NCBI GenBank assembly: GCA_029867005.1
Contig: CP123443.1
Location: 1,984,001-2,048,000 of the forward strand
From: Candidatus Haliotispira prima
GTDB taxonomy: Bacteria > Spirochaetota > Spirochaetia > SP-2023
Reading direction: 5' to 3'
Length of the DNA: 64,000 bases
Shown: piece after piece, positions 2,217 to 26,134 of the stretch
How the letters are laid out: each line of letters opens with the position of its first letter
How positions within the stretch are numbered: the stretch's first letter is position 1
Notes under the pieces: model-generated
The model's database searches: none
Told to the model about the DNA's origin: nothing
What the model saw: only the letters and a program-made list of their open reading frames with translations
Made by a program: the position numbers and the translations under genes

Positions 2217-2245
2217 TTGCCAAGCCTCTTAAATGAGTATACAAT
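2217..2245 (+). promoter_or_regulatory. Promoter of lipoprotein copy A1
   Basis: TTGCCA (2217-2222), 17-bp spacer, TACAAT (2240-2245). The -10 box ends 46 nt before the leader ATG. Same layout in all 15 paralogous genes. Confidence 0.7.
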
Positions 2246-2291
2246 TCAGACCGCAAATCATATTTATCCATTTTCTCAAAGGAGCACCCCC

Positions 2292-3310
2292 ATGGAAAAA
2301 CAAGATCAGATATTGACTGATATTGGCATAAACGGTACAATATCCAATATCCAATATCCAATATCCAATATCACACTACTTTAGAAAACAAGCAGTTACT
2401 TAGATCCCCTACAAACCGTCCCAGACCTTTTTATTCATTTCTCTACCGTCTTTTACCCTTCTTTTTTCTCTCCGTTCTCGGTCTGTCTCTGCACGCCTGC
2501 GCCCCGATCTCGGACACGAGTGACCCGGCGGCCAAACCCGCCGATATTTCCTTTTCCGTCACCGCCGTGGCTTCCTCTGTGCAATTTGAGGTGACCGGTG
2601 TTCCCGCCCTTACCGATGTGGGGGCCGTTATCCGCTTAGCGGCGGAAGCCGCTCCCACCCAAACCGAAGCCCAAGCGAGCAAGGGCTATGTCAGCCTGAG
2701 TATCGAGGCAAACAGCACCCGCAAATTTAGCATCAGCCAACACTACGGCAGCAATTTTGAAGATGGTGGCTTTACTCTGGACGATGTCCTCACGCCCAAT
2801 ACAAAATACAAATTGTATCTGTATATGCCTTCGACTATTGACTTAGGACAAACAGGGATTAAAGGCGGAGCAATTAAGGGGAATACAGTCGAAATTTCTT
2901 TTACTACGGCGAGTTTACCCGCTGAGGGAGATGCCGTATGGAGCGAGAAACGGACAGCTAAAGAATATGTTGCCAGTCTCAACGAATACCACTTTATGGA
3001 AAACCAAACAGGTGTATTTGTGGCCTACTTTTGGTCATCATCTAGGCCTGTTCTTATTGATACTGTTACTAAAGATGATAACAACAAAAATTATGGTTTA
3101 GGAAGCCATGCTAGTCGTATTGTAACACCAATTTCCGATTTTTACTATAATGGAGGAGTAATTACAGGTTATGATTCTAAGGTATCTCAATACACCTACT
3201 CCATAGGTGCCGACAGAGTAGTTTCTCCAATTCTAAGAAACTCTGTCGGCATCTCTGTCACTACTCACAGCTCATCCATAAAGTATGATACTGTCGTTAA
3301 TGGCTATTAG
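2292..3310 (+). CDS. Phase-variable lipoprotein, family A copy A1, OFF (n=4)
   Basis: ATG 2292 follows AAAGGAG and begins a 30-residue leader that runs through the heptamer tract and stops at TAG 2382-2384. The lipoprotein is in another frame, open from within the tract to 3310: a basic, hydrophobic signal segment (LLPFFFLSVLGLSL), lipobox HAC with the cysteine codon at 2498-2500, and a mature domain of about 270 residues. No ATG, GTG or TTG occurs in that frame between tract and cysteine, so it should not be made as it stands. One extra unit (n=5) would fuse the parts into a 341-residue lipoprotein. The mature domain contains a LTPNTKYKLYLYMP segment recalling fibronectin type III strands (weak inference). 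The C-terminal third is class W (YFWSS...VVNGY). Function unknown, probably a surface lipoprotein. Confidence 0.8.
2339..2372 (+). repeat. Heptamer tract A1: (AATATCC)4 plus 6 nt
   Basis: Four perfect units and a partial fifth, starting 47 nt after the first base of the ATG. The distance from ATG to the cysteine codon is 206 nt (2 mod 3), so the gene is OFF; n of 2, 5 or 8 would be ON. Confidence 0.95.
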
Positions 3311-3527
3311 TGGTACAATGTTATTGGAGTTACAATAAATTATGGTATGGGGATACACCCTTACAGTTCGACAGGCTCACCCCCCGGTCTAATCGACTCA
3401 AATAATCCCCACTACTGTAATTCCCCTCCCTTGGAGGGGTGCCCTTCAGGGCGGGGTGGTCCATGGCCCTCCCTTGGCAAGGAGACCAATTAGGGGTCTT
3501 GACACTCAAACCCCTCTAAGGCCCCCC
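3311..3527 (+). repeat. Intergenic short repeats after A1
   Basis: Contains the conserved 3' flank (TTATTGGAGTTACAATAAA, directly after the stop), one copy of the TTCGACAGGCTCACC element, and one GC-rich double-hairpin element (CCCCTCC-CTT-GGAGGGG followed by GCCC-TTCA-GGGC). No gene seen. Confidence 0.7.
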
Positions 3528-3556
3528 TTGCCAAGCCTCTTAAATGAGTATACAAT
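3528..3556 (+). promoter_or_regulatory. Promoter of lipoprotein copy A2
   Basis: TTGCCA (3528-3533), 17-bp spacer, TACAAT (3551-3556); 46 nt from -10 to the ATG. Confidence 0.7.
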
Positions 3557-3602
3557 TCAGGCTGCAAATCATATTTATCCATTTTCTCAGAGGAGCACCC
3601 CC

Positions 3603-4642
3603 ATGAAAAAGCAAAAGGACATATTGACGGACATTGGTATAAACAGTATAATATCCAATATCCAATATCCAATATCCAATATCACACTACTTTAGAAAAC
3701 AAGCAGTTATTTCACCCCCCTACAAACCGTCCCAGACCTTTTTATTTATTTCTCTACCGTCTTTTACCCCTCCTTTTTCTGTCCGTTCTCGGTCTGTTTC
3801 TGCACGCCTGCGTGCCGCTGTCAGACAGTAAGGACCCGGCGGCCAAACCCGCCGATATTTCCTTTTCCGTCACCGCCGTGGCTTCCTCTGTGCAATTCGA
3901 GGTGACCGGTGTTCCCGCCCTTACCGATGTGGGGGCCGTTATCCGCTTAGCGGCGGAAGCCGCTCCGACTCAAACCGAAGCCCAAGCGAGCAAGGGCTAT
4001 GTCAGCCTGAGTATCGAGGCGGGCAGTACCCGCAAATTTAGCATCAGCCAACATTACCGCAGCAATTTTGAAGATGGTGGCTTTACTCCGGCCGATGTCC
4101 TCACACCCAATACAAAATACAAATTGTATCTGTATATGCCTTCGACTATTGACTTAGGCCAAACAGTAATTAAAGGCGGAGAGATTCAGGGCGATACAGT
4201 TGAAATTTCTTTTACTACGGCGAGCTTGCCCGCTCCGGGGGATACAGTATGGAGCCGAAAATGGACAGCTAAAGAATATGTTGCCAGTCTCAACGAATAC
4301 CACTTTATGGAAAACCAAACAGGTGTATTTGTGGCTTACCTCCAAAGCCCCTATATACCTTTTTTAAATGAGTTTAACGTTAATGTGGATAGCAGGTCCG
4401 GGGCTATCCGGGAAATAGGTCATTACAGCCCCGGTTCAAGTACCTCAGCAACACCGGCAATTAATTTTTATTATAATGCAGGGATAGTAACGGGTTATCC
4501 CTCTACGGCAACGAGCCACACGATTTATATAATTGCGGCAGACAAAGTGGCTACTCCAATTCTTCGAAATCTGCTAAAAAATGCTTCCAGTCCTTTCAGC
4601 GGACCTCCTCATAATATTAATACTCCCATATCCCGTTATTAG
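3603..4642 (+). CDS. Phase-variable lipoprotein, family A copy A2, OFF (n=4)
   Basis: AGAGGAG precedes ATG 3603. The leader stops at a TAG just after the tract (3693-3695). The lipoprotein frame, with signal segment LLPLLFLSVLGLFL and lipobox HAC, is open from the tract to 4642; its first possible start codon is a GTG directly after the cysteine, which would lose the signal peptide. With n=5 the product would be 348 residues. The first part of the mature domain is nearly identical by eye to copy A1, while the last third is class P (LQSPYIPF...PISRY). Expected to be lipid-anchored when ON. Function unknown. Confidence 0.8.
3650..3683 (+). repeat. Heptamer tract A2: (AATATCC)4 plus 6 nt
   Basis: Same tract as A1, entered from AAACAGTAT. 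Frame OFF; one added unit would turn it ON. Confidence 0.95.
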
Positions 4643-4886: not shown

Positions 4887-4932
4887 TCAGACCGCAAATC
4901 ATATTTATCCATTTTCTCAGAGGAGCACCCCC

Positions 4933-5963
4933 ATGAAAAAACAAAAGGACATATTGACGGACATTGGCATAAACAGTATAATATCCAATATCCAATATCC
5001 AATATCCAATATCACACTACTTTAGAAAACAAGCAGTTATTTCACCCCCCTACAAACCGTCCCAGACCTTTTTATTCATTTCTCTACCGTCTTTTACCCT
5101 TCTTTTTTCTCTCCGTTCTCGGTCTGTTTCTGCACGCCTGCGCCCCGATCTCGGACACGAGTGACCCGGCGGCCAAACCCGCCGATATTTCCTTTTCTGT
5201 TAATGCGGTCGCTTCCTCTGTCCAATTCGAGGTGACCGGTGTTCCCGCCCTTACCGATGTGGGGGCCGTTATCCACTTAGCGGCGGAAGCCGCTCCCACC
5301 CAAACAGAAGCCCGGGCGAGCAAGGGCTATGTCAGCCTGAGTCTAGAGGCAAACAGCACTCGCAAATTTAGCATCAGCCAACACCACGGCAGTGATTTTA
5401 CGGATGGTGGTTTTACTCTGGCGGATGTCCTCACACCCAATACAAAATACAAATTATATCTGTATATGCCTTCGACTATTGACTTAGGCCAAACAGTAAT
5501 TAAAGGCGGAGAGATTCAGGGCGATACAGTTGAAATTTCTTTTACTACGGCAAGCTTGCCCGCTCCGGGAGATGCCGTATGGAGTCGGAAATGGACAGCG
5601 AAAGAATATGTTGCCAGTCTCAACAAATACCACTTTATGGAGAGCCAAACAGGTGTATTTGTGGCTTATTTTGAAAGCCCCTATATACCTTTTACTAATG
5701 AATTCTCCATTGATATAGACGGATTTCCTCAACCGGTGGGTTATTACAATCCCATTTCAGCTCCCGCAGTAAGACCAGCAGCTAACTTTTATTTGAATAT
5801 GGGACTAATAACAGGATACCCCTCCAGCACAACAAGCCAAACAACCTATTTGATTATTGCAGATAAAGTGGCTTCTTCTGTTCTTCGGGAGATACTAAAA
5901 AATTCTTCCACTCCTTCCGTTGGACTTTCTTATAATCTTCTTACTCCCATATCCCGTTATTAG
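4933..5963 (+). CDS. Phase-variable lipoprotein, family A copy A3, OFF (n=4)
   Basis: ATG 4933 after AGAGGAG. Promoter, UTR and leader are almost the same as in A2, so the 5' cassettes appear to share recent ancestry. The leader terminates after the tract at TAG 5023-5025. The lipoprotein frame (lipobox HAC, then APISDTSDPAAK) is open to 5963 and would give 345 residues at n=5. Mature domain: conserved first half, class P C-terminal third ending PISRY. Without a frame change only weak internal starts within the mature part exist, such as GTG 5232. Function unknown. Confidence 0.8.
4980..5013 (+). repeat. Heptamer tract A3: (AATATCC)4 plus 6 nt
   Basis: Four full units and a partial. OFF; n=5 would be ON. 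Confidence 0.95.
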
Positions 5964-6076: not shown

Positions 6077-6230
6077 ATTCCCCTCCCTTGGAGGGGTGCC
6101 CTTCAGGCCGGGGTGGTCTATTCCCCTCCCTTGGAGGGGTGCTCTTCAGGGCGGGGTGGTCTATTCCCCTCCTCCGGAGGGGTGCCCTTCAGGGCGGGGT
6201 GGTCTATCCCCCTCCCTTGGAGGGGTCGGG
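6077..6230 (+). repeat. 43-bp GC-rich tandem repeat, 3 units plus partial
   Basis: Three 43-bp units (6077-6205) and a truncated fourth. Each unit can form two adjacent hairpins, CCCCTCC/GGAGGGG and GCCC/GGGC. Same family as the large array at 8643. Lies between A3 and the family D gene. Confidence 0.85.
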
Positions 6231-6250
6231 GTGATCGTCTGTGACACCCC

Positions 6251-6316: not shown

Positions 6317-7343
6317 ATGAAAAAAAAAGACGAACTGTTGACTGATATTGGCATAAACAGTATAATATCCAATATCCAATATCCAATATCCAATATCCAA
6401 CCAATTACTAAAATCTTCATTAATTAATTTTGGCCTTTTATTCAAATCCCCCCCATTATTTTCTCGATTATTTCCCTCTCTTTTTTGCTTTTTTTCCATT
6501 TTTTTCATTCATCTGTTTTTTGCCGCCTGTGTCGATCTTGGCACAGAATCTGCTACGACATACACCGTCAGCTTCCAAACGGACGGAGGCAGCCCAATGC
6601 CTTCAGTGAAGGTCACCGGCGGCACTACACTTGACACTACACTAAGCAAAACCATAACGGCCCCGACTAAGGCGGCAAGTGGCACCATTACCTACTACTT
6701 TGGAGACTGGTACACCGTGGACAAAGCGAAGGGACATACGGGCAAGACCAAGTATGATTATACCAAGCCGGTAACGGGCGATATAACCCTCTACGCTCGC
6801 TGGTACACCGAACAACCTGCCGACAAGGCCTCTTTACAGGCACTGATTGCCGGCTTGGGAGATACTGCCGACCTCAACCACATTGACGTGCGTAAAATAA
6901 CCGATATGAATAAACTCTTCGAAGATAAGAAGACCTTTAATGGGGATATCACGGGTTGGGATGTCTCCAACGTTACTGATATAAACATAATGTTTCATGG
7001 TGCTTTAGAATTTAATCAACCCATAGGAGATTGGGATGTCTCCGGTGTTACTAATATGGAGAAGATCTTTAGCAATGCTGTAAAATTTAATCAACCCATA
7101 GGAAATTGGGAGGTCTCCGGTGTCACCAACATGGATGGTATGTTTAGTAATGCGTTAGAATTCAATCAACCTATAGGAAATTGGGATGTCTCCGGTGTCA
7201 CCAACATGAATAGTATGTTCTATATTGCCAAAGCCTTTGACCAGGATATTTCAGGTTGGACCGTAAGCCAGGTAACGGATTATCCATTTATTTTCGGAGG
7301 TAGTGGTATTAGCACGGCTCATAAACCCCCCAAATTTCGATAG
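6317..7343 (+). CDS. Phase-variable BspA/DUF285-type lipoprotein, copy D1, OFF (n=5)
   Basis: AAAGGAG precedes ATG 6317 (MKKKDELLTDIGIN leader). The leader frame stops at TAA 6425-6427. The lipoprotein frame is open through the tract and encodes a long hydrophobic segment ending FFAAC (cysteine codon 6528-6530), then a TYTVSFQTDGG segment like an InlB B-repeat, and four or so repeats of about 25 residues with the pattern FNQPIGxWDVSGVTNM, typical of DUF285/BspA-like leucine-rich repeat surface proteins. The distance from ATG to cysteine is 211 nt (1 mod 3), so n of 4 or 7 would be ON; n=4 gives 339 residues. ATG 6597 could start a signal-less 248-residue product. BspA-like proteins are usually adhesins; here the role is inferred. 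Confidence 0.8.
6364..6398 (+). repeat. Heptamer tract D1: (AATATCC)5
   Basis: Five perfect units followed by AACC. Because the flanks differ in length from family A, n=5 is OFF here and loss of one unit would be ON. Confidence 0.95.
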
Positions 7344-7503: not shown

Positions 7504-8528
7504 ATGAAAAAACAAAAGGACATATTGACGGATATTGGCATAAACGGTACAATATCCAATATCCAATATCCAATATCCAATATCACACTACTTTAGAAAA
7601 CAAGCAGTTACTACTTTCTCTCCCAAACCGTTCCAAACCTTTTTATTCATTTCTTTCTCGTATTTTACCTCTCTTTTTTCTGTCCGTTCTCGGTCTGTCT
7701 CTGCCGGCCTGTGCCCCGATCTCGGACACGAGTGACCCGGCGGCCAAACCCGCCGATATTTCCTTTTCTGTTAATGCGGTCGCTTCCTCTGTGCAATTCG
7801 AGGTGACCGGTGTTCCGGCTGTTACCGATTTGGGGGCCGTTATCCGCTTAGCGGCGGAAGCTGCTCCGACTCAAACCGAAGCCCAAGCGAGCAAGGGCTA
7901 TGTCAGCCTGAGTATAGAGGCGAGCAGCACCCGCAAATTTAGCATCAGCCAACATTACCGCAGTGATTTTACAGATGACGGCTTTACTCTGGCCGATGTC
8001 CTCACGCCCAATACAAAATACAAATTGTATCTGTATATGCCATCGGCTATTGACTTAACACAAACAGGGATTAAAGGCGGAGCAATTAAGGGCGATACAG
8101 TTGAAATTTCCTTTACCACTGCGAGTTTACCCGCTGCGGGGGATACAGTATGGAGCGAGAAATGGACAGCTAAAGAATATGTTGCCAGTCTCAACGAGTA
8201 CCACTTTATGGAGAACCAAACAGGTATCATTGTACTTTACTTTGAAAGCCCCTATATACCTTTCTTTCATGAGATCACCATTGATGTGGATGGGACTATC
8301 CAACCGGTAGGCCGTTACACAGGCAGTTCAATGACCGCAACACCGCTCTACAACTTTTATTTTAATTATGGGTCGGTAGCGGGTTATCCTTCTACAGCAA
8401 CGAGCCACACCTTCCATATGATTATGGCAGACAACGGGACTTCTGTTCTTCAGAATCGACTAAAAACGTCTTCCATTCCTTCCGGTGGTCCTTCTTACGA
8501 TCTTCTTATTCCCATATCCCGTTATTAG
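7504..8528 (+). CDS. Phase-variable lipoprotein, family A copy A4, OFF (n=4)
   Basis: ATG 7504 after AGAGGAG; the leader ends shortly after the tract at TAG 7594-7596. The lipoprotein frame has lipobox PAC (LSLPACAPISD) and is open to 8528, giving 343 residues at n=5. Class P C-terminus (FESPYIPFFHE...PISRY). The mature first half matches the other A copies with scattered substitutions. The family D gene immediately upstream has an unrelated body, so cassettes of different families are interleaved. Function unknown. Confidence 0.8.
7551..7584 (+). repeat. Heptamer tract A4: (AATATCC)4 plus 6 nt
   Basis: Four units, entered from AAACGGTAC as in A1. OFF; n=5 would be ON. Confidence 0.95.
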
Positions 8529-8642: not shown

Positions 8643-9090
8643 ATTCCCCTCCTGTGGAGAGGTGCCCTTCTGGGCAGGGTAGTCCATTCCCCTCCCTCGG
8701 AGGGGTGCCCTTCTGGGCGGGGTGGTCCATTCCCCTCCTGTGGAGGGGTGCCCTTCAGCGCAGGGTGGTCCATTCCCCTCCTGTGGAGGGGTGCCCTTCT
8801 GGGCGGGGTGGTCCATTCCCCTCCTGTGGAGGCGTGCCCTTCTGGGCGGGATGGTCCATTCCCCTCCTGTGGAGGCGTGCCCTTCAGGGCGGGGTAGTCC
8901 ATTCCCCTCCCTCGGAGGCGTGCCCTTCAGGGCGGGATGGTCCATTCCCCTCCCTCGGAGGCGTGCCCTTCAGGGCGGGATGGTCCATTCCCCTCCCTCG
9001 GAGGCGTGCCCTTCAGGGCGGGATGGTCCATTCCCCTCCCTCGGAGGCGTGCCCTTCAGGGCGGGGTGGTCCATTCCCCTCCCTTGGCAA
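8643..9090 (+). repeat. 43-bp GC-rich tandem array, 10 units plus partial
   Basis: Ten 43-bp units in direct head-to-tail order (8643-9072) and a degenerate partial. Variants inside the unit (CTGTGG versus CTCGG, GGGG versus GGCG, TTCTGGG versus TTCAGGG) change step by step along the array, as expected of local duplication. Each unit can form two hairpins. Long overlapping open frames on both strands here are a by-product of repeats without stop codons. The array fills most of the 8529-9136 gap. Confidence 0.95.
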
Positions 9091-9200: not shown

Positions 9201-10299
9201 ATGAAATATCAAAAAATACTGTTGACCGTTAACCGGCCAAGTGATATAATATCCCATATCCCATATCCCATATCCCATATCCCATATCCTTACCAGTTCT
9301 AAAACATATATACAGCTATTTTATCTTTTTCTACTGCCAAATAAATTGAAACTTTCCCAACCTTTTTCCTTTTTCTGTTTGTTTTCCATTCTTCTTATTC
9401 ATTTGGTTCTCTCCGCCTGTGCCCCGATCTCCGGCGACAGTAAGGACCCGGAACCCCCCGCTCCGATTGTCCTAGACACTTCCGTGGCTTGGGTCTCCAT
9501 GCGGGAGGGCCTGGTGCAATTTAACAATGGCACCCAAGGAGTCAGAACCATTGGCGTTGTGGCAAGTAAAGAGGCCACAGCCCCTGCCTATGCCAACGTC
9601 AGAGACTTGCCCGGTTTTTACACCAGAAAAACCAAAGTGGATGGAACACCGAGAACCGTTTATCTTTCGATGACCGATAAAATGACCACCGCCAAGTTTA
9701 ATGCGAATGTAACCGTTTCTGTTAATGGACAAGCTACAGACTTTGTCAGTGCCATTGCCGCCGCTCCCGAACTGCTGCACCCGAACACCAACTACTACGC
9801 TCATTTTTATGAGATCACAGGCACGACAGGCACAGCCATAAAAAAACTGGAATTTACGACAGAAAATTTTCCTGCCGTCTACCCAAGCTCGGAAGGAACG
9901 TACAGCAATGTTTATAACCAAATCAGGGCCGACAGCAGCTCTCCGGCTATAGAATACAAGACTTCTGAAAGTTATTTAATTCCGGCGAGATTTTATTACG
10001 TTTCAGTAAGTGGAGCAATGGATCATCAATTCCTACGGGAAACTAATTTCTATCGTATCAGTACAGTTACGGGAACAACACGCCCTTTGGGAAATCCCAT
10101 GCCGGCAATTTTATTTTATGACTTGTACAATATGACTCCCTCAGGACCTGAGGAGAATTTAACTCTTTGGGACGAAATGATAGGGATAGGTCCGCTTAAT
10201 ACGTATAACTTGAGTGAGCACTGGAGAATTGATCACGCATTTGGGGGGCGAGCCTTTTTATTTTACGACAATAAGAAGGCGGTATCAGTGACCGAGTAG
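9201..10299 (+). CDS. Phase-variable lipoprotein, family B copy B1, OFF (n=5)
   Basis: GGAGGAG lies upstream of ATG 9201. The leader (MKYQKILLTVNRPSD) is divergent and crosses a variant tract of ATATCCC units before a TAA. The lipoprotein frame is open through the tract to 10299. It has a signal segment FCLFSILLIHLVL, lipobox SAC, CAPISGDSKDPEPP, and about 290 mature residues with an LHPNTNYYAHFYEI segment resembling fibronectin type III strands. ATG to body is 1 mod 3, so n of 4 or 7 would be ON (363 residues at n=4). A TTG at 9346 is in frame but has no recognisable ribosome binding site. Close paralogue of B2. Function unknown. Confidence 0.78.
9249..9289 (+). repeat. Variant heptamer tract B1: (ATATCCC)5 plus 6 nt
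   Basis: The unit differs by one base from the AATATCC of the other genes but is also 7 bp and stop-free in all three frames. Five full units; OFF. Confidence 0.95.
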
Positions 10300-10467: not shown

Positions 10468-11575
10468 ATGAAAAAACGAGATGATATGTTGACGGCTATC
10501 GGTATAAAGAGTAGAATATCCAATATCCAATATCCAATATCCAATATCCAATATCCTTTCAAAATTAGGCTTTCAGCAAACTAAGCCCCTTCTTTTATTT
10601 CCCAATATATTCAAATTTCCCTTATTATTTTCCCCATTTTTTTGCCTTTTTTCCATCTTTTTCATTCATCTGTTCTTGGCTTCCTGTGCCCCGATCTCCG
10701 GCGACAGTAAGGACCCGGAACCCCCCGCTCCGATTGTCCTAAACACTTCCGTAGCTTGGGTCTCCATGCGGGAGGGCCTGGTGCAATTTGACAATGGTAC
10801 CCAAGGAGCCGGAACAGTTGGCGTTGTAGTCAGCAAAGAAGATACACCTCCTACTTATGCAAGTGTAAAAGACTTGCCCGGTTTTTACACCAGAAAAACC
10901 AAAGCGGACGGGACAGCCAGAACCGTCTATCTTTCGATGACCGATAAAATGACCACCGCCAAGTTTAATGCGAATGTAACCGTTTCTGTTAATGGACAAG
11001 CTACAGACTTTGTCAGTGCCATTACTGCCGCTCCGGAACTGCTGCACCCAAATACCAACTACTATGCTTATTTCTACGAGATCACAGGCACGACAGGCAC
11101 AGCCATAAAAAAACTGGAATTTACAACGGAAAACTGCCCTGCCGTCTACCCAAGCACGGAAGGAACGTACAGCAATGTTTATAACCAAATCAGGGCCGAC
11201 AGCAGCTCTCCGACTATAGAATACAAGACTTCTGAAAGTTATTTAATTCCGGCGAGGTTTTATTATGTTTCAGTAAGTGGGGCAACGACTCATCAATTCC
11301 AACGGAATACTACGTTCTATACTATAAGTACAATTGCCGGAACAACACGCCCTTTAGGCTCTTTAGGAAATTTCGGTCTGGCAAATTTATTTTATGACTT
11401 GTACAATATGACTCCCTCAGGACCTGACGAAAACTTAACTCTTTGGGACGAAATGATAGGGATAGGTCCTCTTAATACGCACAATTTGAGTGAGTTCTGG
11501 AAAATTGATCACCGATTTGGGGGGAGAGATTTTTTATTTTACGACAATAAGAAGGCGGTATTAGTGACCGAATAG
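10468..11575 (+). CDS. Phase-variable lipoprotein, family B copy B2, OFF (n=6)
   Basis: AAAGGAG precedes ATG 10468. The leader MKKRDDMLTAIGIKSR crosses the tract and stops at TAA 10582-10584. The lipoprotein frame is open from the tract to 11575: hydrophobic segment FCLFSIFFIHLFL, lipobox ASC, then a mature domain nearly identical to B1 over its first two thirds, with differences clustered near the C-terminus. ATG to body is 208 nt (1 mod 3), so n of 5 or 8 would be ON (366 residues at n=5). TTG 10676 lies inside the signal peptide and would not give export. Function unknown. Confidence 0.8.
10515..10556 (+). repeat. Heptamer tract B2: (AATATCC)6
   Basis: Six perfect units followed by TTTC. 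OFF; n=5 would be ON. B1 and B2 share a body but have different units and counts, so the tracts change independently of the bodies. Confidence 0.95.
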
Positions 11576-11600: not shown

Positions 11601-11677
11601 ATCCCTGCGGGTTGGGGGTCGGCGGCACCCCTACCCCGTCCAAGACCCACTTGCCATTCAACAAGCTCACCCCCCCA

Positions 11678-12160
11678 GTCTATGGACTCAAATAATCCCC
11701 TCTGTTGTAATTCCCCTCAGCCGGAGGGGTGCCCTTCAGGGCGGGGTGGTCTATCTCCCTCTCTTGGAGGGGGCGGGGGTGGTCACACTCAAATTTGTCT
11801 AAGGCCCACTTGTCAAGGTTCGACAAGCTCACCCCCCAGTCTATGGACTCAAATAATCCCCTCTGTTGTAATTCCCCTCCGGCGGAGGGCTGCCCTTCAG
11901 GGCGGGGTGGTCTATCCCCCTCTCTTGGAGGGGTCGGGGGTGGTCACACTCAAATTTGTCTAAGGCCCACTTGTCAAGGTTCGACAGGCTCACCCCCCCA
12001 GTCTATGGACTCAAATAATCCCCTCTGTTGTAATTCCCCTCCAGCGGAGGGCTGCCCTTCAGGGCGGGGTGGTCTATGCCCCTCTCTTGGAGGGGGCGGG
12101 GGTGGTTACACTCAAATTTGTCCAAGGCCCACTTGTCAAGGTTCGACAGGCTCACCTACC
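11678..12160 (+). repeat. 161-162 bp composite unit repeated three times
   Basis: Starts of equivalent positions at 11678, 11839 and 12001. Each unit holds a GC-rich double hairpin, a CTCTTGGAGGG hairpin, and a TTGTCAAGGTTCGACARGCTC element. It fills the 11.6-12.2 kb gap between B2 and the ON gene. No gene supported here. Confidence 0.9.
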
Positions 12161-12267: not shown

Positions 12268-13263
12268 ATGAAAAAACAAGACCCAATATTGACTGATATT
12301 GGCATAAGCAGTCCAATATCCAATATCCAATATCCAATATCCAATATCCAATATCCAATATCCAATATCCAATATCACACTACTTTAGAAAGCAAGCAGC
12401 TATTTCCACCCCCTACAAACCGTCTTAAACCTTTTTATTCATTTCCCTATTGTCTTTTACTCTCCCTTTCTCTCTCCGTTCTCGGTCTGTTTCTGCCGGC
12501 CTGTGCCCCGCTGTCGGACAGCGAGAACCCGCCGGCCAAACTCCCCGATATTTCTCTCAGTAACACCTTGTATGCTCCGCACTTCATCTACTTTGAAATA
12601 ACTGTAAATAAAGCCATTGATACCAACTTGGAAGTCGGTTTTCTGATTGGCACCGATGCCGTAGTACCGCAAAATCCGGAAAACAATCAGGGCTATATCA
12701 GCAGAACTTTTAGCAGCAGCAATAAAAAACGGCAAGTCTTTTTGTTTATGCACGATACCACCGGCTATACCAACTCGGACGTAGAAAATACCTTTGACAG
12801 TTCCGACTTCCTACAAGTAGATACCAATTACTACCTGCATATTGTCAACAGCAGCCTGACAACTTCACCGCAAGCATTCACAACCATGAGCTACGAAACT
12901 CTCAATGCTATTGGCAATCCCGTTACAGCACTAAACGGCTTAGCAAGTACCGATCCTGTCGCCATCACCGGAATTATAGAGCGCAAGGCCGATGAACCGA
13001 CCATCTTCCCCTCTGTAATCTTTGGTAGCGGTTATCGTGCTGCTACAATTCGACAGGGAACCACCGATATAATACTCTGTACGTATACAGCACAAACATG
13101 TTACCCTAGTTTTGCCGGTTTGAAAGACTACCGGCACTACCGGAGTGCCGTCGATTATATTACCTTGTTAATAGCCCCAAATGCCCGTACCGGCTCCGGC
13201 ACATGGTCGGTGGTGACAACCAGTTCAACATATTATCTCCAAATTAACACCATCACAGAGTAA
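12268..13263 (+). CDS. Phase-variable lipoprotein, family C copy C1, ON (n=8)
   Basis: The only one of the 15 switch genes in this window whose ATG is in frame with its lipoprotein: 331 codons run uninterrupted from ATG 12268 (AGAGGAG upstream) to TAA 13263. The leader MKKQDPILTDIGIS is followed by heptapeptide repeats SNIQYPI made by the tract, a hydrophilic stretch, the hydrophobic segment LLLSLSLSVLGLF, and lipobox PAC with cysteine at residue 79. The segment before the cysteine is therefore unusually long, its first 55 or so residues being the switch. The mature domain of about 250 residues is unlike families A, B and D and I do not recognise it. The equivalent frame in the other copies reads the same YHTTLExKQL junction, which shows this is the intended reading. 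Confidence 0.85.
   Translation: MKKQDPILTDIGISSPISNIQYPISNIQYPISNIQYHTTLESKQLFPPPTNRLKPFYSFPYCLLLSLSLSVLGLFLPACAPLSDSENPPAKLPDISLSNTLYAPHFIYFEITVNKAIDTNLEVGFLIGTDAVVPQNPENNQGYISRTFSSSNKKRQVFLFMHDTTGYTNSDVENTFDSSDFLQVDTNYYLHIVNSSLTTSPQAFTTMSYETLNAIGNPVTALNGLASTDPVAITGIIERKADEPTIFPSVIFGSGYRAATIRQGTTDIILCTYTAQTCYPSFAGLKDYRHYRSAVDYITLLIAPNARTGSGTWSVVTTSSTYYLQINTITE
12315..12376 (+). repeat. Heptamer tract C1: (AATATCC)8 plus 6 nt
   Basis: Eight full units, the longest tract in the window. Relative to the n=4 genes this adds 28 nt (1 mod 3), which brings the lipoprotein into frame. Confidence 0.97.
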
Positions 13264-16705: not shown

Positions 16706-16788
16706 CCAAGGTTCGACAGGCTCACCTACCATTTAACAGGCTCACCTGCCATTTGACAGCCTCACCTGCCATTCGACAGGCTCACCTC
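16706..16788 (+). repeat. 20-bp element CGACAGGCTCACCTACCATT, four degenerate copies
   Basis: Imperfect tandem copies between the DUF924 gene and the A5 promoter. The same element recurs in most intergenic gaps of the region. Confidence 0.8.
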
Positions 16789-16887: not shown

Positions 16888-17903
16888 ATGGAAAAACAAA
16901 ACCAAATATTGACTGACATTGGCATAAACAGTATAATATCCAATATCCAATATCCAATATCCAATATCACACTACTTTAGAAAACAAGCAGTTATTTCAC
17001 CCCCCTACAAACCATCCTAAACCTTTTTACTCTTTTTTCTGTCGTCTTTTACCACTATTTTTTCTGTCCGTTCTCGGTCTGTTTCTCCCGGCCTGTGCCC
17101 CAATTTCGGACAGTAAAGACCCGGAACCCAACCCCGATATTTCCTTTTCCGTCACCGCTGTGGCCTCCTCTCTCCAATTAGAGGTGACCGGTGTTCCGGC
17201 TGTTACAGATGTGGGGGCCGTTATCCGCTTAGCGGCGGAAGCCGCTCCGACTCAGACTGAAGCCCGGGCGAGCAAAGGCTATGTCAGCCTCAGTATAGAG
17301 GCGGGCAGCACCCGCAAATTCAGTATCAGCCAACATTACGCCAGTGATTTTACGGATGGTGGCTTTACTCTGGACGATGTCCTCACACCCAATGCAAAAT
17401 ACAAATTGTACCTGTATATGCCTTCGACTATTGACCTGGGGCAAACGGAGATTAAAGGCGGAACGATTAAGGGGGATACAGTTGAAATTTCTTTTACCAC
17501 CGCGAGCTTGCCCGCTGCGGGGGATGCCGTATGGAGCGAGAAACTGGCTGCCAAAGAATATGTTGCCAGTCTCAACGAATACCATTTTATGGAAAACCAA
17601 ACAGGTGTATTTGTCGCCTATTTTTGGTCATCATTTATACCTCCTGTTATTGATATTGCCACTAAAGATAACAACATAAATCGTGGTTTAGGAAGTCTTG
17701 TAGGTAGTATCGTAACACCAGGTCCCGATTATTACTATAATGGAGGAGTAATTACAGGTTATGATTCTACGGTGTCTCAATACACCTACTCAATAGGTGC
17801 CGACAAAGTAACTTCTCCAACCATAAGAAACCATATAAAAGTGACTGTCACTCCTCAAAGCGGCCCATTCGTACGATATAATACTGTCGTTAATCGCTAT
17901 TAG
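16888..17903 (+). CDS. Phase-variable lipoprotein, family A copy A5, OFF (n=4)
   Basis: AGAGGAG precedes ATG 16888. The leader MEKQNQILTDIGIN stops after the tract at TAG 16978-16980. The lipoprotein frame has signal segment LLPLFFLSVLGLFL, lipobox PAC, DSKDPEPNPDIS, and is open to 17903 (340 residues at n=5). Class W C-terminus ending VVNRY, nearly the same by eye as in A9. GTG 17160 is the first start in frame but lies within the mature domain. Function unknown. Confidence 0.8.
16935..16968 (+). repeat. Heptamer tract A5: (AATATCC)4 plus 6 nt
   Basis: Four units. OFF; n=5 would be ON. Confidence 0.95.
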
Positions 17904-18158
17904 TCGTATAATTTTACTGGGGTTACAATAAAATTAAGGTATGAGGATACACCGTTACATATGGTGTAAGGTTCACCAAACTAACCTACCATTCCCCTCC
18001 CTTGAAGGGGTCAGGGGTGGTGGGCAAAGGGACTAATTAGGGGGGGGCACTCAAACCCGCTCTAAGGCCACCCCTTGCCAAGGTTCGACAGGCTCACCTA
18101 CCATTTGACAGGCTCACCTACCATTCGACAGGCTCACCTACCACCGACAGGCTACCCC
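17904..18158 (+). repeat. Intergenic repeats between A5 and A6
   Basis: Conserved 3' flank (TTTTACTGGGGTTACAATAAA-like), a short CCCTCCCTTGAAGGGG hairpin, and three copies of the 20-bp CGACAGGCTCACCTACCATT element from about 18085. No gene seen. Confidence 0.75.
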
Positions 18159-18249: not shown

Positions 18250-19262
18250 ATGGAAAAACAAAACCAAATATTGACTGATGTTGGCATAAACAGTATAATA
18301 TCCAATATCCAATATCCAATATCCAATATCATACTACTTTAGAGAGAAAGCAGTTATTTTCTTGTATATCAACTAGTTACAATCTTTTCCATCCATTTTT
18401 CTTACGCCTTCTTCCCTTCCTCTTGCTGTCCGTTCTCGGTCTGTTTCTGCCGGCCTGTGCCCCGATTTCGGACAGTAAAAACCCGGAACCCAACCCCGAT
18501 ATTTCCTTTTCCGTCACCGCTGTGGCCTCCTCTGTGCAATTCGAGGTGACTGGTGTTCCGGCTGTTACCGATATGGGGGCCGTTATCCGCCAGGCGGCGG
18601 AAGCCGCTCCGACTCAGACCGAAGCCCGGGCAAGCAAGGGATATGTCAGTCTGAGTATAGAGGCGGGCAGCACCCGCAAATTTAGCATCAGCCAACATTA
18701 CGGCAGCAACTTTGAAGATGGCGGTTTTACTCTGGACGATGTTCTCACACCCAACACAAAATACAAATTGTACCTGTATATGCCTTCTGCTATTGACTTA
18801 GCACAAACAGCCATTAAAGGCGGAGCAATTAAGGGGGATACAGTTGAAATTTCTTTTACTACGGCGAGCTTGCCCGCTGCGGGGGATGCCGTATGGAGCG
18901 AGAAGTTGGCAGCCGAAGAATATACAGCAAGCCTCAACGAATACCACTTTATGGAAAACCAAACAGGTGTATTTGTCGCCTACTTTTGGTCATCGTCTAT
19001 ACCTGTTCTTATTGAGAGTAGTACTGCAAACCTCGACAACCGTAATGGTCTGGGAACTTATACTGGTGGCATGCCAAGACTGAATCCTAATTTTTACTAT
19101 AATGGCGGGGTCATTTCGGGTTATATATCTGCGGAGAATCAATACAGCTATATACTAAGTGCCGACAAATTAGCTTCTTCAATCTTAAGAGACGATATTA
19201 AAATGCATGTCACTCTCACGAGAGGAAGCACAAATTATACGACTCTCGTTAATCGCTATTAG
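18250..19262 (+). CDS. Phase-variable lipoprotein, family A copy A6, OFF (n=4)
   Basis: ATG 18250 after AGAGGAG. The leader stops at the TAG just after the tract. The lipoprotein frame (339 residues at n=5) carries a signal-peptide variant with TSYNLFHPFFLRLLPF that is shared only with A11, then lipobox PAC. A TTG at 18423 lies inside the signal peptide in frame and could give a weak, shortened signal sequence. Class W C-terminus of a second subtype (IPVLIESST...TLVNRY), similar to A8. Its mix of an A11-like front and an A8-like back points to recombination between copies. Confidence 0.8.
18297..18330 (+). repeat. Heptamer tract A6: (AATATCC)4 plus 6 nt
   Basis: Four units. OFF; n=5 would be ON. 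Confidence 0.95.
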
Positions 19263-19570: not shown

Positions 19571-20604
19571 ATGAAAAAACAAGATCAGATATTGACTGAT
19601 ATTGGCATAAACAGTATAATATCCAATATCCAATATCCAATATCCAATATCACACTACTTTAGAAAACAAGTACTTACAACTTTCTCTCTCCAACCGTCC
19701 TAAACTCCTTTATCCATTTCTCTACCGCCTTTTACCACTATTTTTTCTGTCTGTTTTCGGTCTGTTTCTGCCGGCCTGTGCCCCGATTTCGGACACGAGT
19801 GACCCGGCGGCCAAAGCCACGGATATGTCCTTTTCCGTCACCGCTGTGGCCTCCTCTGTCCAATTCGAGGTGACCGGTGTTCCGGCCGTTACCGATATGG
19901 GGGCCGTTATTCGCTTAGCGGCGGAAGCCGCTCCCACCAAGACTGAAGCGCAAGCGAGCAAGGGCTATGTCAGCCTCAGTATAGAGGCCAACAGCACCCG
20001 CAAATTTAGCATCAGCCAACACTATGGCAGTGATTTTACGGATGGCGGTTTTACTCTGGACGATGTCCTCACACCCAATACAAAGTACAAACTGTATCTG
20101 TATATGCCTTCTGCTATTGACTTAGCGCAAACAGCTATTAAAGGCGGAGAAATTAAGGAGAACAAGATTGAAATTTCTTTTACCACCGTGAGCTTGCCCG
20201 CTGCGGGGGATGCCGTATGGAGCGAAAAATTCGCAGCCAAAGAATATGTTGCCAGTCTAAACGAGTGTCATTTTATGGAAACACAAACGGGTGTAATTGT
20301 GGTTTACTTTCAAAGCCCCTATATACCTTTTCTTCAGGAATTCGTCATGAATAATGTAGACGGAATTGCCCGACCGGTGGGTCGTTACGATCCCATTCTA
20401 ACTCCCGCAGCAAGGCCAACAGCTAATTTTTATTTTAATATGGGACTAATAGCAGGGTATCCCTCTACCGCAGTGAGCCAAACATTCTATATGATTGCGG
20501 CAGACAACGGGACTTCTATTCTTAGAGATCTACTGGGAAATGGTATCAGTCCTCCCAGTGGACCTGCTCATGACATCAATAATCCTCCCATATTCCGCTA
20601 TTAG
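19571..20604 (+). CDS. Phase-variable lipoprotein, family A copy A7, OFF (n=4)
   Basis: ATG 19571 after AGAGGAG. The leader MKKQDQILTDIGIN stops after the tract (TAG 19661-19663). The lipoprotein frame has signal segment LLPLFFLSVFGLFL and lipobox PAC and would give 346 residues at n=5. Class P C-terminus (FQSPYIPFLQE) ending PPIFRY, a small departure from the usual PISRY. The strand following FMPS (IKENKIEISFTTV) also differs from other copies. Function unknown. Confidence 0.8.
19618..19651 (+). repeat. Heptamer tract A7: (AATATCC)4 plus 6 nt
   Basis: Four units. OFF; n=5 would be ON. Confidence 0.95.
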
Positions 20605-20908: not shown

Positions 20909-21927
20909 ATGAAAAAACAAGATCAGATATTGACTGATATTGGTATAAGCAGTATAATATCCAATATCCAATATCCAATATCCAATATCACACTACTTTA
21001 GAAAACAAGCATTTACGACTTTCTCTCCCACACCGTCCTAAACTCCTTTACTCATTTCTTTGTCGTCTTTTACCCTTATTTTTCCTGTCCGTTTTCGGCC
21101 TGTTTCTGCCGGCCTGTGCCCCGATCCCGGACACGAGTGACCCGGCGGCCAAAGCCACCGATATCTCCTTTTCCGTCACTGCCGTGGCTTCTTCTGTCCA
21201 ATTCGAGGTGACCGGTGTTCCGGCTGTTACCGATATGGGGGCCGTTATCCGCCTGGCGGCGGAAGCCGCTCCGACCCAGACCGAAGCCCGGGCGAGCAAG
21301 GGCTATGTCAGCCTCAGTATAGAGGCGGGCAGTACGCGCAAATTTAGCATCAGCCAACATTACGGCAGTGATTTTACGGATGGCGGTTTTACGCTTTCAG
21401 ATGTCCTCACGCCCAATACAAAGTACAAACTGTACCTGTATATGCCTTCGGCTATTGACATGGGGCAAACAGAGATTAAAGGCGGAACGATTAAAGGAGA
21501 TACAGTTGAAATTTCTTTTACCACCGCGAGCTTACCTGCTGCGGGGAATGCGGTCTGGAGCGAGAAACTGGCAGCCAAAGAATACGTTGCCGGTCTCAAC
21601 GAATACCATTTTATGGAAAACCAAACGGGTGTATTTGTCTCCTACTTTTGGTCATCGTCTATACCTATCTTGATTGAAGCCAGTACTATAGACCTTATCA
21701 ACCGTATAGGTCTGGGAAATTATGTCAGTGGTACCTCAACACCGGATTCTCGTTTTTACTATAATAGTGGGGTCATTCCAGGTTATATATCTACGGAGAA
21801 TCAATACAGCTACATCATCAGTGCTGACAAAATAGCTTCTCCAACCCTAAAAAATGATGTCAAAGTGGTTGTAACTCTCCTACTCAAACCATCCGTACAA
21901 TATAAGACTATCATTACTCGCTATTAG
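20909..21927 (+). CDS. Phase-variable lipoprotein, family A copy A8, OFF (n=4)
   Basis: ATG 20909 after AGAGGAG. The leader MKKQDQILTDIGIS stops after the tract. The lipoprotein frame has signal segment LLPLFFLSVFGLFL, lipobox PAC (CAPIPDTSDPAAKATD) and is open to 21927 (341 residues at n=5). Class W C-terminus (IPILIEASTIDLINR), ending IITRY, closest to A6. GTG 21184 is the first in-frame start and is past the signal. Function unknown. Confidence 0.8.
20956..20989 (+). repeat. Heptamer tract A8: (AATATCC)4 plus 6 nt
   Basis: Four units. OFF; n=5 would be ON. Confidence 0.95.
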
Positions 21928-22000
21928 CGGTATAATTTTATTGGGGTTACACCACATAAGGTGCCACGGCCCCTCTAACCCACTCCCTTGCCAAGGTTCG

Positions 22001-22160
22001 ACAGGCTCACCTACCATTCGACAGGCTCACCTACCATTCGACAGGCTCACCTACCATTCGACAGGCTCACCTACCATTCGACAGGCTCACCTACCATTCG
22101 ACAGGCTCACCTACCATTCGACAGGCTCACCTACCATTCGACAGGCTCACCTACCACCGA
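22001..22160 (+). repeat. 20-bp tandem array, 8 copies
   Basis: Eight direct copies of CGACAGGCTCACCTACCATT (read with phase ACAGGCTCAC...), seven of them perfect. There are no spacers between copies, so it is not a CRISPR array. The same element occurs in one to four copies in other gaps, so this is a local expansion. It sits between A8 and A9. Confidence 0.97.
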
Positions 22161-22296
22161 CAGGTTCACCTACCATTCCCCTCCCTTTCAGAGGTTGGGG
22201 GTCGTAGCACTAGTCCCCCTCTAAGGCCCCCCTTGCCAAGGTTCGACAAGCTCACCTACCATTTGGCAGACTCACCTACCACCGACAGGCGACCTC

Positions 22297-22388: not shown

Positions 22389-22403
22389 CAGAGGAGCACC
22401 CCC

Positions 22404-23422
22404 ATGAAAAAACAAAACCAAATATTGACTGATGTTGGTATAAGCAGTATAATATCCAATATCCAATATCCAATATCCAATATCACACTACTTTAGAAAA
22501 CAAGCATTTACGACTTTCTCTCCCACACCGTCCTAAACTCCTTTACTCATTTCTCTGTCGTCTTTTACCCTTCTTTTTTCTGTCCGTTTTCGGTCTGTCT
22601 CTGCCGGCCTGTGCCCCAATCCCGGACACGAGTGACCCGGCGGCCAAACCCGCCGATATTTCCTTTTCCGTCAATGCCGTGGCTTCCTCTGTCCAATTCG
22701 AGGTGACCGGTGTTTCGGCCGTTACCGATATGGGGGCCGTTATCCGCCTGGCGGCGGAAGCCGCTCCGACCCAGACCGAAGCCCGGGCAAGCAAGGGCTA
22801 TGTCAGCCTGAGTATAGAGGCGGGCAGCACCCGCAAATTTAGCATCAGCCAACATTACAGCAGCAACTTTGAAGATGATGGCTTTACCCTCGCCGATGTC
22901 CTCACACCCGATACAAAATACAAATTGTACCTGTATATGCCTTCGGCTATTGACCTGGGGCAAACGGAGATTAAAGGCGGAACGATTAAGGGGGATACAG
23001 TTGAAATTTCTTTTACCACCGCGAGCTTGCCCGCTGCGGGGGATGCCGTATGGAGCGAGAAACTGGCAGCCAAAGAATATGTTGCCAGTCTCAACGAATA
23101 CCATTTTATGGAGAACCAAACGGGTGTATTTGTCGCCTATTTTTGGTTATCGTTTATACCTCCTGTTATTGATATTGCCACCAAAGATAACAACATAAAT
23201 CGTGGTTTAGGAAGTATTGTAGGTAATATCGTAACACCAGGCACTGATTATTACTATAATGGAGGAGTAATTACAGGTTATGATTCTACTGTGTCTCAAT
23301 ACACCTACTCAATAGGTGCCGACAAAGTAACTTCTCCAACCATAAGAAACCATATAAAAGTGACTATCACTCCTCAAAGCGGCTCATTCATACGATATAA
23401 TACTGTCGTTAATCGCTATTAG
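22404..23422 (+). CDS. Phase-variable lipoprotein, family A copy A9, OFF (n=4)
   Basis: ATG 22404 after AGAGGAG. The leader MKKQNQILTDVGIS stops after the tract. The lipoprotein frame has signal segment LLPFFFLSVFGLSL and lipobox PAC (CAPIPDTSDPAAKPAD) and would give 341 residues at n=5. Class W C-terminus (FIPPVIDIATKDNN) ending VVNRY, nearly the same by eye as A5 although A5 has a different signal region and UTR. Function unknown. Confidence 0.8.
22451..22484 (+). repeat. Heptamer tract A9: (AATATCC)4 plus 6 nt
   Basis: Four units. OFF; n=5 would be ON. Confidence 0.95.
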
Positions 23423-23688: not shown

Positions 23689-23734
23689 TCAGACTGCAAA
23701 TCGACTTTGCCCATCTTCTCAGAGGAGCACCCCC

Positions 23735-24762
23735 ATGAAAAAACAAAATCAAATATTGACTGATGTTGGTATAAGCAGTATAATATCCAATATCCAATAT
23801 CCAATATCCAATATCACACTACTTTAGAAAACAAGCATTTACGACTTTCTCTCCCATACCGTCCTAAACTCCTTTATTCATTTTTTTACCGTCTTTTACC
23901 CTTCTTTTTTCTGTCCGTTCTCGGTCTGTTTCTGCCGGCCTGTGCCCCGATCTCGGACACGAATGACCCGGCGGCCAAAGCCACCGATATTTCCTTTTCC
24001 GTCACCGCTGTGGCCTCCTCTGTGCAATTCGAGGTGACCGGTGTTCCGGCTGTTACCGATATGGGGGCCGTTATCCGCTTAGCGGCGGAAGCCGCTCCGA
24101 CTCAGACTGAAGCCCGGGCCAGCAAGGGCTATGTCAGCCTGAGTATAGAGGCGGGCAGCACCCGCAAATTTAGCATCAGCCAACACTATGGTAGTAACTT
24201 TACGGATGATGGCTTTACTCTGACCGATGTCCTCACACCCAATACAAAATACAAACTGTACCTGTATATGCCTTCGGTTATTGACTTAGTTCAAACGGAG
24301 ATTAAAGGCGGAACAATTAAGGGGGATACAGTTGAAATTTCTTTTACTACCTCGAGCTTGCCCCCTGCGAGGGATCCACTATGGAGCGAAAAATTCGCAG
24401 CCAAAGAATATGTTGCCAGTCTCAATGAATACCATTTTATGGAGAATCAAACGGGTGTCATTGTACTTTACGTTCAAAGCCCCTATATACCTTTTCAGCA
24501 TGAGTTTGCCGTTAATAATGTGAATGGGACTATTGAAACGATAGGCCGTTACACCGGCAGTTTAATGACCGCAACAGCAGTCCACAACTTTTATTTTAAT
24601 TATGGGTTAGTCGGAGGTTATCCCTCTACGGCAACGAGCCACACGTTCTATATGATTGCGGCAGACAACGGAACTGCGGTTCTTCGGAATCTGCTAAAAA
24701 CTTCTTCCATTCCTCCCAGAGGACTTTCTACTGACATTTTAATTCCCATATCCCGTTATTAA
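23735..24762 (+). CDS. Phase-variable lipoprotein, family A copy A10, OFF (n=4)
   Basis: ATG 23735 after AGAGGAG. The leader MKKQNQILTDVGIS stops after the tract. The lipoprotein frame has signal segment LLPFFFLSVLGLFL and lipobox PAC (CAPISDTNDPAAKATD), open to 24762 (344 residues at n=5). Class P C-terminus (VQSPYIPFQHE) ending PISRY. About 100 bp of 3' flank is almost the same as the flank after A11, although the signal regions of A10 and A11 differ. Function unknown. Confidence 0.8.
23782..23815 (+). repeat. Heptamer tract A10: (AATATCC)4 plus 6 nt
   Basis: Four units. OFF; n=5 would be ON. Confidence 0.95.
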
Positions 24763-25010
24763 TTGGGTCGTTTTTATTGTTTTTATTGGAGTTACAGTAA
24801 AGAAAAGATCTCTGCCAAGACCCTGCCCAAGGTTCGACAGGCTCACCTACCATTCGACAGGCTCACCTACCATTTGACAGGCTCACCTACCACGGACAGG
24901 CACCTCTTGCCAAGGTTCGACAAGCTCACCTACCACCGACAGGCCACCTACCATTCCCCTCCCTTTCAGAGGTTGGGGGTCGTAGCACTAGCCCCCCTCT
25001 AAGGCCCCCC
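24763..25010 (+). repeat. Intergenic repeats between A10 and A11
   Basis: Extended 3' flank (TTTTTATTGTTTTTATTGG), then four or five 20-bp CGACAGGCTCACCTACCATT elements from about 24833, and a TTTCAGAGGTTGGGGGTCGT block also seen before A8 and A9. No gene seen. Confidence 0.75.
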
Positions 25011-25039
25011 TTGCCAAGCCTCTTAAATGAGTATACAAT
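25011..25039 (+). promoter_or_regulatory. Promoter of lipoprotein copy A11
   Basis: TTGCCA (25011-25016), 17-bp spacer, TACAAT (25034-25039); 70 nt to the ATG. Confidence 0.7.
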
Positions 25040-25109
25040 TCAGACTGCAAATTGACTTTGCCCATTTTCGCATTTTCGTATCTTCGTATCTTCTCAGAGG
25101 AGTTCTCCC

Positions 25110-26134
25110 ATGGAAAAACAAAACCAAATATTGACTGACATTGGTATAAACAGTATAATATCCAATATCCAATATCCAATATCCAATATCATACTACTTT
25201 AGAGAGAAAGCAGTTATTTTCTTGTATATCAACTAGTTACAATCTTTTCCATTCATTTTTCTTACGCCTTCTTCCCTTCCTTTTGCTGTCCGTTCTCGGT
25301 CTGTCTCTGCCGGCCTGTGCCCCGATTTCAGACAGTAAAGACCCGGAACCCAACCCCGATATTTCCTTTTCCGTCACCGCTGTAGCCTCCTCTGTCCAAT
25401 TCGAGGTGACCGGTGTTCCGGCCGTTACCGATATGGGGGCCGTTATCCGTCTCGCGGCGGAAGCCGCTCCCACCAAGACTGAAGCCCAAGCGAGCAAGGG
25501 CTATGTCAGCCTCAGTATAGAGGCGGGCAGTACCCGCAAATTTAGTATCAGCCAACATTACGGCAGTGATTTTACGGATGGCGGTTTTACTCTGGCCGAT
25601 GTCCTCACACCCAATACAAAATACAAATTGTACCTGTATATCCCTTCGGCTATTGACCCGGGGCAAACAGAGATTAAAGGCGGAACGATTAAGGGGGATA
25701 CAGTTGAAATTTCTTTTACTACCGCGAGCTTACCCCCTGCGGGGGATGCCGTATGGAGCGAAAAATTCGCATCCAAAGAATCTGTTGCCAGTCTCAACGA
25801 ATACCATTTTATGGAAAACCAAACAGGTGTATTTGTCGCTTATTTTGAAAGCCCCTATATACCTTTTCTGCATGAGCTCTCCATTGATAATGTAGATGGT
25901 TCTTCGACAGCAGTTGGTCGTTATAGTGGCAGTTCAATGACAGCAACACCACGTTCCAACTTTTATTTTAATTATGAATTAATAGCCGGTTATCCCTCTA
26001 CAGCAACGAGCCACACGTTCTATATGATTGCGGCAGACAACGGAACTTCTATTCTTCGAGATCTACTAAAAAATTCTAACACTCCTGACAGTGGACCTAG
26101 TTATATCATTACCATTCCCATATCCCGTTATTAA
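25110..26134 (+). CDS. Phase-variable lipoprotein, family A copy A11, OFF (n=4)
   Basis: ATG 25110 after AGAGGAG. The leader MEKQNQILTDIGIN stops after the tract. The lipoprotein frame has the same signal-region variant as A6 (TSYNLFHSFFLRLLPF), lipobox PAC, and is open to 26134 (343 residues at n=5). A TTG at 25283 falls inside the signal peptide. Class P C-terminus (FESPYIPFLHE) ending PISRY, whereas A6 is class W, so the two share a front but not a back. It is the last switch gene in the window. Confidence 0.8.
25157..25190 (+). repeat. Heptamer tract A11: (AATATCC)4 plus 6 nt
   Basis: Four units. OFF; n=5 would be ON. Confidence 0.95.

Follow-up and report, generated by a model that had tools for sequence, protein, structure and literature searches.

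A heptanucleotide repeat after the start codon as a candidate phase-variation switch for a largely silent lipoprotein repertoire in a spirochaete

Heptanucleotide repeats can control bacterial genes from within the coding sequence. In neuO of Escherichia coli K1 (phage CUS-3), the unit AAGACTC is repeated in the 5' coding region, in 3 to 53 copies, with 20 the commonest count (PMC13001214). Similarly, pglE of Neisseria meningitidis undergoes phase variation through a heptanucleotide repeat (PMC7157529), and intragenic heptanucleotide candidates are described in Haemophilus (PMC2651432). Here, we describe a related arrangement in Candidatus Haliotispira prima. The starting point was a 64,000-nucleotide stretch of the chromosome (bases 1984001–2048000), which we call the window. 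It contains fifteen genes for predicted lipoproteins, between a -35 box at window position 2217 and a stop codon at 26134, each with a tract of 7-base pair (bp) units after the start codon. The first-pass annotation of the window read the tracts as ON/OFF switches, and held that comparable intragenic switches are limited to units of 1–5 bp. That limit is contradicted by neuO, pglE and the Haemophilus candidates. In our assessment, the tract is probably a slipped-strand translational phase-variation switch of a largely silent predicted lipoprotein repertoire. The kind of switch is already known from neuO and pglE; its scale here, and the near-universal OFF state, look new.

The resemblance to neuO lies in a 7-bp tandem repeat in the 5' coding region; in neuO, full-length translation is set by unit number modulo three (PMC13001214). 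However, neuO is one gene, encoding an O-acetyltransferase, whereas here there are about 400 loci and predicted lipoproteins, tracts mostly have 5–6 units, and 176 of 184 scored genes are OFF. The pglE case differs in being one gene, of another kind and in another phylum, and the other genes of its module use poly-G (PMC7157529). Heptanucleotide repeats also control a surface protein at hmw1A/hmw2A of Haemophilus influenzae, but there the repeat is mostly in the promoter, with one strain having a different heptamer far inside the gene (PMC2651432). For a large lipoprotein family with a repeat at every gene, the parallel is vlhA of Mycoplasma gallisepticum. First experiments saw one vlhA member expressed at a time, and later work found other members too (PMC6258824). 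The vlhA repeat is a promoter GAA repeat, acting transcriptionally at a count of 12, and the genes form 3–5 cassettes of about ten (PMC6258824). In contrast, the repeat described here is downstream of the start codon, so a switch of the vlhA type, with an exact count in the promoter, does not apply. Finally, several BspA-like (DUF285) genes of Candidatus Mycoplasma girerdii are OFF by frameshift in the wild type, with rarer repeat-length variants ON (PMC5476646). The resemblance lies in DUF285-type (BspA-like) proteins, predicted here to be at the surface, but M. girerdii uses dinucleotide repeats at eight genes (PMC5476646), and here the DUF285-type family accounts for 13 of 174 proteins. Among the matches listed in open-licence PubMed Central, we found no description of a spirochaete switch of this type, or of any on this scale; this is a weak form of absence.

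The host chromosome is a single contig of 3,251,735 bases in the genome collection. The protein database record gives 3,251,835 bases, 100 more. Across the whole chromosome there are 1107 overlapping matches to three AATATCC units and 711 to four. Subtraction leaves 396 tracts with at least three perfect units. A reversed control pattern had no matches on the chromosome, and the heptamer pattern had none in 59 genomes of the same class, which share nothing nearer than class with the host, and none in viral contigs. We read 1.092 Mb of sequence (33.6% of the chromosome), made up of 40 near-evenly spaced 20-kb stretches, the window, and 12 stretches aimed at long tracts or tract-rich regions. 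The first 864 kb was used for an array census and a leader profile. That part has 98 perfect arrays of at least three copies with a period of 7; the remaining periods between 2 and 12 together contribute 13. All but two of the 98 belong to the heptamer tract family. Control loci from other genomes, totalling 1.213 Mb, contain 6 seven-bp arrays. We conclude that heptamer tracts are far above chance. The genome has a match to the MutS domain, which rules out loss of MutS as the cause of the tracts. In the 1.092 Mb read there are 187 family tracts; placing the unread tracts in the same gene type is an extrapolation. Three tracts were excluded from scoring, leaving 184: tract 2505001 is cut by the end of a stretch, the leader frame of tract 828437 (L121) stops inside the tract, and tract 79862 has a lipoprotein frame of just 52 codons.

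Genes of the family share one anatomy. A promoter and a GGAG ribosome binding site precede an ATG, which opens a leader of about 15 codons. Next comes the tract, followed by a hydrophobic stretch that ends in a lipobox-like cysteine; the mature protein makes up the rest. Sigma-70-like promoters precede 163 of the 184 scored genes, with a spacer of exactly 17 bp in 161, and GGAG precedes 181. The distance from ATG to tract is usually 44–50 bp (187 tracts), and the tract is pure, intragenic and in the 5' coding region. In OFF genes the leader frame crosses the tract and then stops, a median of 12 bp beyond it. In ON genes it enters the signal peptide, with its lipobox-like cysteine, and continues through a mature protein of roughly 200–370 residues.

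By this measure, 176 of the 184 scored genes are OFF and eight are ON. Random frames would leave one-third ON, and the deficit is marked (p = 7e-22). Neither wrong frame is rare (100 and 77 among 177 OFF genes, counted before exclusions). Since tandem neighbours share ancestry, state was also counted by cluster. All 32 tandem clusters are majority OFF, 24 are wholly OFF, and the first gene is OFF in 32 (p = 4e-6, one gene per cluster). The 40 spaced stretches alone have two ON genes in 80. Note that the targeted stretches are enriched in long tracts, so the overall ON count is, if anything, inflated. An intragenic ON/OFF switch, as first proposed for the window, remains the best explanation and is supported by the anatomy. 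What that proposal missed was the scale, about 400 tracts, and the OFF state of 176 of 184 genes.

The silent genes are kept intact. Among complete OFF frames, 168 of 169 have at least 200 open codons. In independent OFF-OFF pairs, the ratio of nonsynonymous to synonymous divergence (dN/dS) is below 1 in 79 of 79, with a median of 0.31. For the mature part, the pooled dN/dS is 0.33 when read in the lipoprotein frame, compared with 0.93 and 1.18 for the two wrong frames. Such a frame-specific low ratio is not expected of genes that are never expressed. We conclude that OFF genes are under purifying selection, and are not dead.

State also varies with tract length. We call a tract long if it reaches 48 bp, enough for six full units and all but one base of a seventh. 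There are 11 tracts of at least 48 bp in the whole genome, all of which were read. Four are ON, which matches the random-frame expectation. Only 4 of 173 shorter tracts are ON (Fisher p = 4e-4). Within the largest family, two of five long tracts are ON, against 1 of 143 shorter ones (p = 0.003). From these standing ON and OFF frequencies, we infer that short tracts seldom change and that longer ones are near slippage equilibrium. Slippage rate is expected to increase with tract length. Most tracts have 5–6 units.

Changes by whole units have occurred. Of 40 close gene pairs (similarity of 88% or more on each flank), seven differ in tract length by 7 or 14 bp, three by 1–2 bp, and 30 are equal. 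Three of the seven whole-unit pairs include gene 35113, so there were at least five changes. Two of the seven are ON and OFF sisters: 829937/831427 (94% identical) and 292471/293696 (85%). Units also differ in sequence between genes. Homogeneous tracts of a variant unit account for 7 of 187, and consist of ATATCCC (5), ATATCCT (1) or TCCACTA (1). Neighbouring tracts 428311 and 429628 have similar leaders, with units one base apart in every copy. The simplest origin for variant-unit arrays is loss of units followed by re-expansion. Near-perfect continuation of the repeat past the downstream end of the tract was seen in none of 187 tracts, on the downstream side only.

The mechanism we propose is as follows. 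The 7-base repeat after the leader ATG puts the predicted lipoprotein out of frame in 176 of the 184 genes scored, and a single gene would return to frame when whole units are added or lost. Units would be gained and lost by replication slippage, making switching reversible. Switching would be rare in tracts of 5–6 units, whose genes would amount to an almost locked silent store, and free in those of at least 7 units. The proteins would be lipidated and surface-exposed. The store may serve cell-surface change, either for immune evasion in a host or for escape from phage or predators.

Several observations weigh against this mechanism. First, random slippage predicts far more ON genes than there are. 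Hence, selection against the ON state, or descent from OFF copies, is needed besides the switch. Second, 30 of 40 close pairs have equal tract length although OFF-OFF pairs average a synonymous divergence (dS) of 0.41, which counts against rapid switching of short tracts. Third, the typical count of 5–6 units falls short of the 20 that is commonest in neuO (PMC13001214). Fourth, 4 of 13 genes in the DUF285-type family are ON (two of four long tracts, and two of nine short). Thus, the ON state partly follows family and not tract length alone, and family and length are partly confounded. Fifth, an alternative in-frame start may exist upstream of the tract in ten of 167 OFF genes; the other 157 have no in-frame ATG, GTG or TTG there. 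Sixth, dN/dS across frames is 0.65, 0.66 and 0.81 for the leader, and 0.47, 0.47 and 0.89 for the signal peptide, so that the expected frame is not singled out in either. Because these ratios do not discriminate, the frame argument for that part of the gene rests on anatomy. Finally, all tract lengths come from one genome, and that unit number varies among cells of the species is part of the proposal. As a separate matter, TTG makes up 108 of 1672 leucine codons in the signal-peptide stretch and 645 of 3207 in the mature protein. This depletion fits selection against internal starts, but was set aside as confounded by base composition.

Silent cassettes act as sequence donors in other antigen-varying bacteria. 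The archive might likewise be fixed, with frames shifting only over evolutionary time and silent copies donating sequence to a few ON genes by gene conversion. Short tracts, the 30 close pairs of equal length, and the scarcity of ON genes (8 of 184) all fit this explanation. So does the window gene 2 subfamily of 37 genes, where the mature protein is conserved in its first two thirds and variable in the last. However, silent donors would need no promoter, ribosome site or start codon, yet 181 of the 184 genes are preceded by GGAG, and 163 have a promoter with the common spacing. Furthermore, the eight ON genes are at eight separate chromosomal places, rather than one expression site. Nor are they copies of OFF genes: for the seven that were compared, the nearest paralogue in the sequence read (a third of the genome) is 65–94% identical. 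We regard a fixed archive as unlikely.

Selection on a frame that is out of register in 176 of 184 genes could also mean that OFF genes are expressed. Ribosomes might change frame within the repeat, or begin at an unusual codon, and the short leader peptide would then be a regulator. The ten OFF genes with an in-frame upstream start are consistent with that possibility. Conversely, as both wrong frames are common, no single frameshift suits all genes. An ordinary in-frame start at least 15 codons before the lipobox is present in 4 of 174 genes and absent from 170, which leaves ATT, CTG and other rare starts as candidates. Relatives of the family without a tract are also informative. The leader profile found 108 sites in the first 864 kb, 12 of them remote from any tract. 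We translated eleven of these, leaving out 427813, which matches marginally (E 0.0077). In 10 of the 11, translation from the ATG continues without a break past the leader, into what resembles a signal peptide, and gives proteins of 446–1299 amino acids. The remaining one stops after 22 codons. From this in-frame arrangement, we conclude that the leader belongs to the protein. Taken with the points above, expression of OFF genes by frameshifting or unusual starts is quite improbable.

The tract-less relatives carry MQNRNKILTDTEIKYLKPKTQSAK-like leaders, in frame with large precursors. In genome coordinates, examples are at about 1890861–1901293 (L134), about 1069531 and 1075048 (L124), 827177 (L121) and 1640619 (L131). 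Several of their leaders hold only about two degenerate 7-bp units, and such leaders are a possible ancestor of the tract. A few ON genes (L163 at genome coordinate 270863, P0004 and P0013) have an altered or foreign leader before the tract, so that another repeat frame is used. A changed or foreign leader is a second route to the ON state.

It is very improbable that a translational regulator instead binds the repeat, by analogy with a proposal made for the intergenic TAACTGA heptamers of Beggiatoaceae. One pure heptamer in hundreds of genes, against leaders that differ by 33% on average (152 compared), would suit such a site. The TAACTGA sets of one genome, though, are mostly just upstream of putative starts, at genes without a common function (PMC4679880). 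Here, the repeat is usually 44–50 bp inside the reading frame, unit variants are homogenised within a tract, and the frame is left broken. Lastly, errors of assembly or base calling could have altered unit numbers and made intact genes appear OFF, and hundreds of similar genes are hard to assemble in a genome rated 89.55% complete, but with no other stop over at least 200 codons in 168 of 169 complete OFF genes, and tract-less genes in frame in 10 of 11, this is scarcely credible.

The window locus illustrates the arrangement. All fifteen genes, on the plus strand, have an ATG 44–48 bp upstream of the tract, preceded by GGAG, then a leader, a tract and an open lipoprotein frame. The first-pass annotation had this right, including the openness of the lipoprotein frame across the tract in 15 of 15 genes (316 to 352 codons from the tract). 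Its claim that whole-unit change restores an open gene is borne out directly for 14; for gene 6, the frame relation comes from the scoring of all tracts in the 1.092 Mb read. It also noted that the unit has no stop in any frame. This is true of four unit variants, though little informative for a 7-mer. As sequenced, 14 genes terminate after 30–38 codons. The exception is gene 8 (12268–13263), the one ON gene of the window, whose frame stays open for 331 codons across both leader and lipoprotein; its tract has 9.3 units (12312–12376). Fourteen tracts are (AATATCC)n. That of gene 6 (9201–10299; OFF) is (ATATCCC)n, with 5.9 units at 9249–9289.

The promoter of gene 1 (2217–2245, plus strand) has a -35 element TTGCCA (2217–2222), a 17-bp spacer and a -10 element TACAAT (2240–2245). 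Gene 1 (2292–3310) has its leader ATG at 2292 and a tract of 5.0 units (2338–2372), and its lipoprotein frame extends to 3310; it is OFF, with a stop at 2384. The other OFF genes are as follows. Gene 4 (6317–7343; tract 6364–6400, 5.3 units) encodes a DUF285 lipoprotein (Pfam E 2.1e-63). Gene 5 (7504–8528) has 5.0 units at 7550–7584 and gene 7 (10468–11575) has 6.0 units at 10515–10556. Nine genes have tracts of 4.9 units: gene 2 (3603–4642; tract 3650–3683), gene 3 (4933–5963; 4980–5013), gene 9 (16888–17903; 16935–16968), gene 10 (18250–19262; 18297–18330), gene 11 (19571–20604; 19618–19651), gene 12 (20909–21927; 20956–20989), gene 13 (22404–23422; 22451–22484), gene 14 (23735–24762; 23782–23815) and gene 15 (25110–26134; 25157–25190). 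Between genes there are further arrays. At 6077–6226, 8643–9084 and 11657–12156, the repeated units are 43 bp long (ATTCCCCTCCCTTGGAGGGGTGCCCTTCAGGGCGGGGTGGTC-like) or 162 bp long. Arrays of a TTCGACAGGCTCACCTACCA-like 20-bp unit are between several lipoprotein genes (16715–16787, 18084–18153, 21997–22178 and 24833–24956). The 20-bp arrays could promote recombination or duplication of lipoprotein genes.

The encoded proteins are diverse. Single-linkage clustering places 174 mature proteins in five families of 148, 13, 10, 2 and 1, and they form 155 clusters at 90% identity. A simple lipobox rule is satisfied in 174 of 176 complete frames, so lipidation is predicted. A Pfam DUF285 match was found in one of seven window proteins scanned; by similarity clustering, genes of this type are the 13-member family. 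In the largest family, members scanned had no accepted Pfam domain, the 120 listed of 130 protein matches are all on the host's own contig, and none of 296 other genomes of the class had a match (with up to 8 candidates scored per genome). An AlphaFold model of one window open reading frame is mostly beta, with a mean predicted local distance difference test score (pLDDT) of 75 and a predicted template modelling score (pTM) of 0.54. The best Foldseek matches are mainly two-domain immunoglobulin-like chains, and across the 50 matches listed the template modelling (TM) scores are at most 0.30 and the root-mean-square deviations 14.6–23. At low confidence, and as no more than a hint of fold class, the model suggests beta-sandwich domains.

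The host itself stands apart. In an enolase comparison (80 loci kept), the closest sequences are 77% and 76% identical, from Spirochaetaceae and Spirochaetales metagenome-assembled genomes. Hence, the host is a spirochaete, and the collections searched contain no close relative of it. A protein search with the leader region returned 10 matches on the host contig, and 8 proteins on other contigs that are unrelated except for similar repeat peptides. The latter (P0007, P0008, P0010, P0011 and P0015–P0018) hold NIQYPIS-like peptides. Similar heptamer arrays seem to exist elsewhere, perhaps intergenic and translated by gene callers.

Our results carry a warning for annotation. The database gene calls compared start internally, past the signal peptide, as does the GTG-start open reading frame of window gene 2. 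Such internal-start calls conceal the lipoprotein nature of the product.

Slippage-switched genes usually number tens per genome. A study of N. meningitidis listed 277 phase-variable candidates, and saw variation in 115 (PMC5084427). In the present case, one repeat and one kind of leader occur at about 400 places, and the genes examined are almost all silent yet intact. This raises the question of whether slippage switches are set by a tract-length lock, by selection against the ON state, or by a factor that holds most copies OFF. A more specific picture may also be considered, whose chance we would put at slightly short of even. Some 400 complete lipoprotein genes, with their own promoters, would be near-locked by tracts of 5–6 units, and the few genes with at least 7 units would run freely and supply the current coat. 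The comparison for such a one-heptamer lipoprotein archive is the surface-coat archive of trypanosomes. If true, the archive would be, to our knowledge, the largest repeat-switched gene repertoire in one bacterium.

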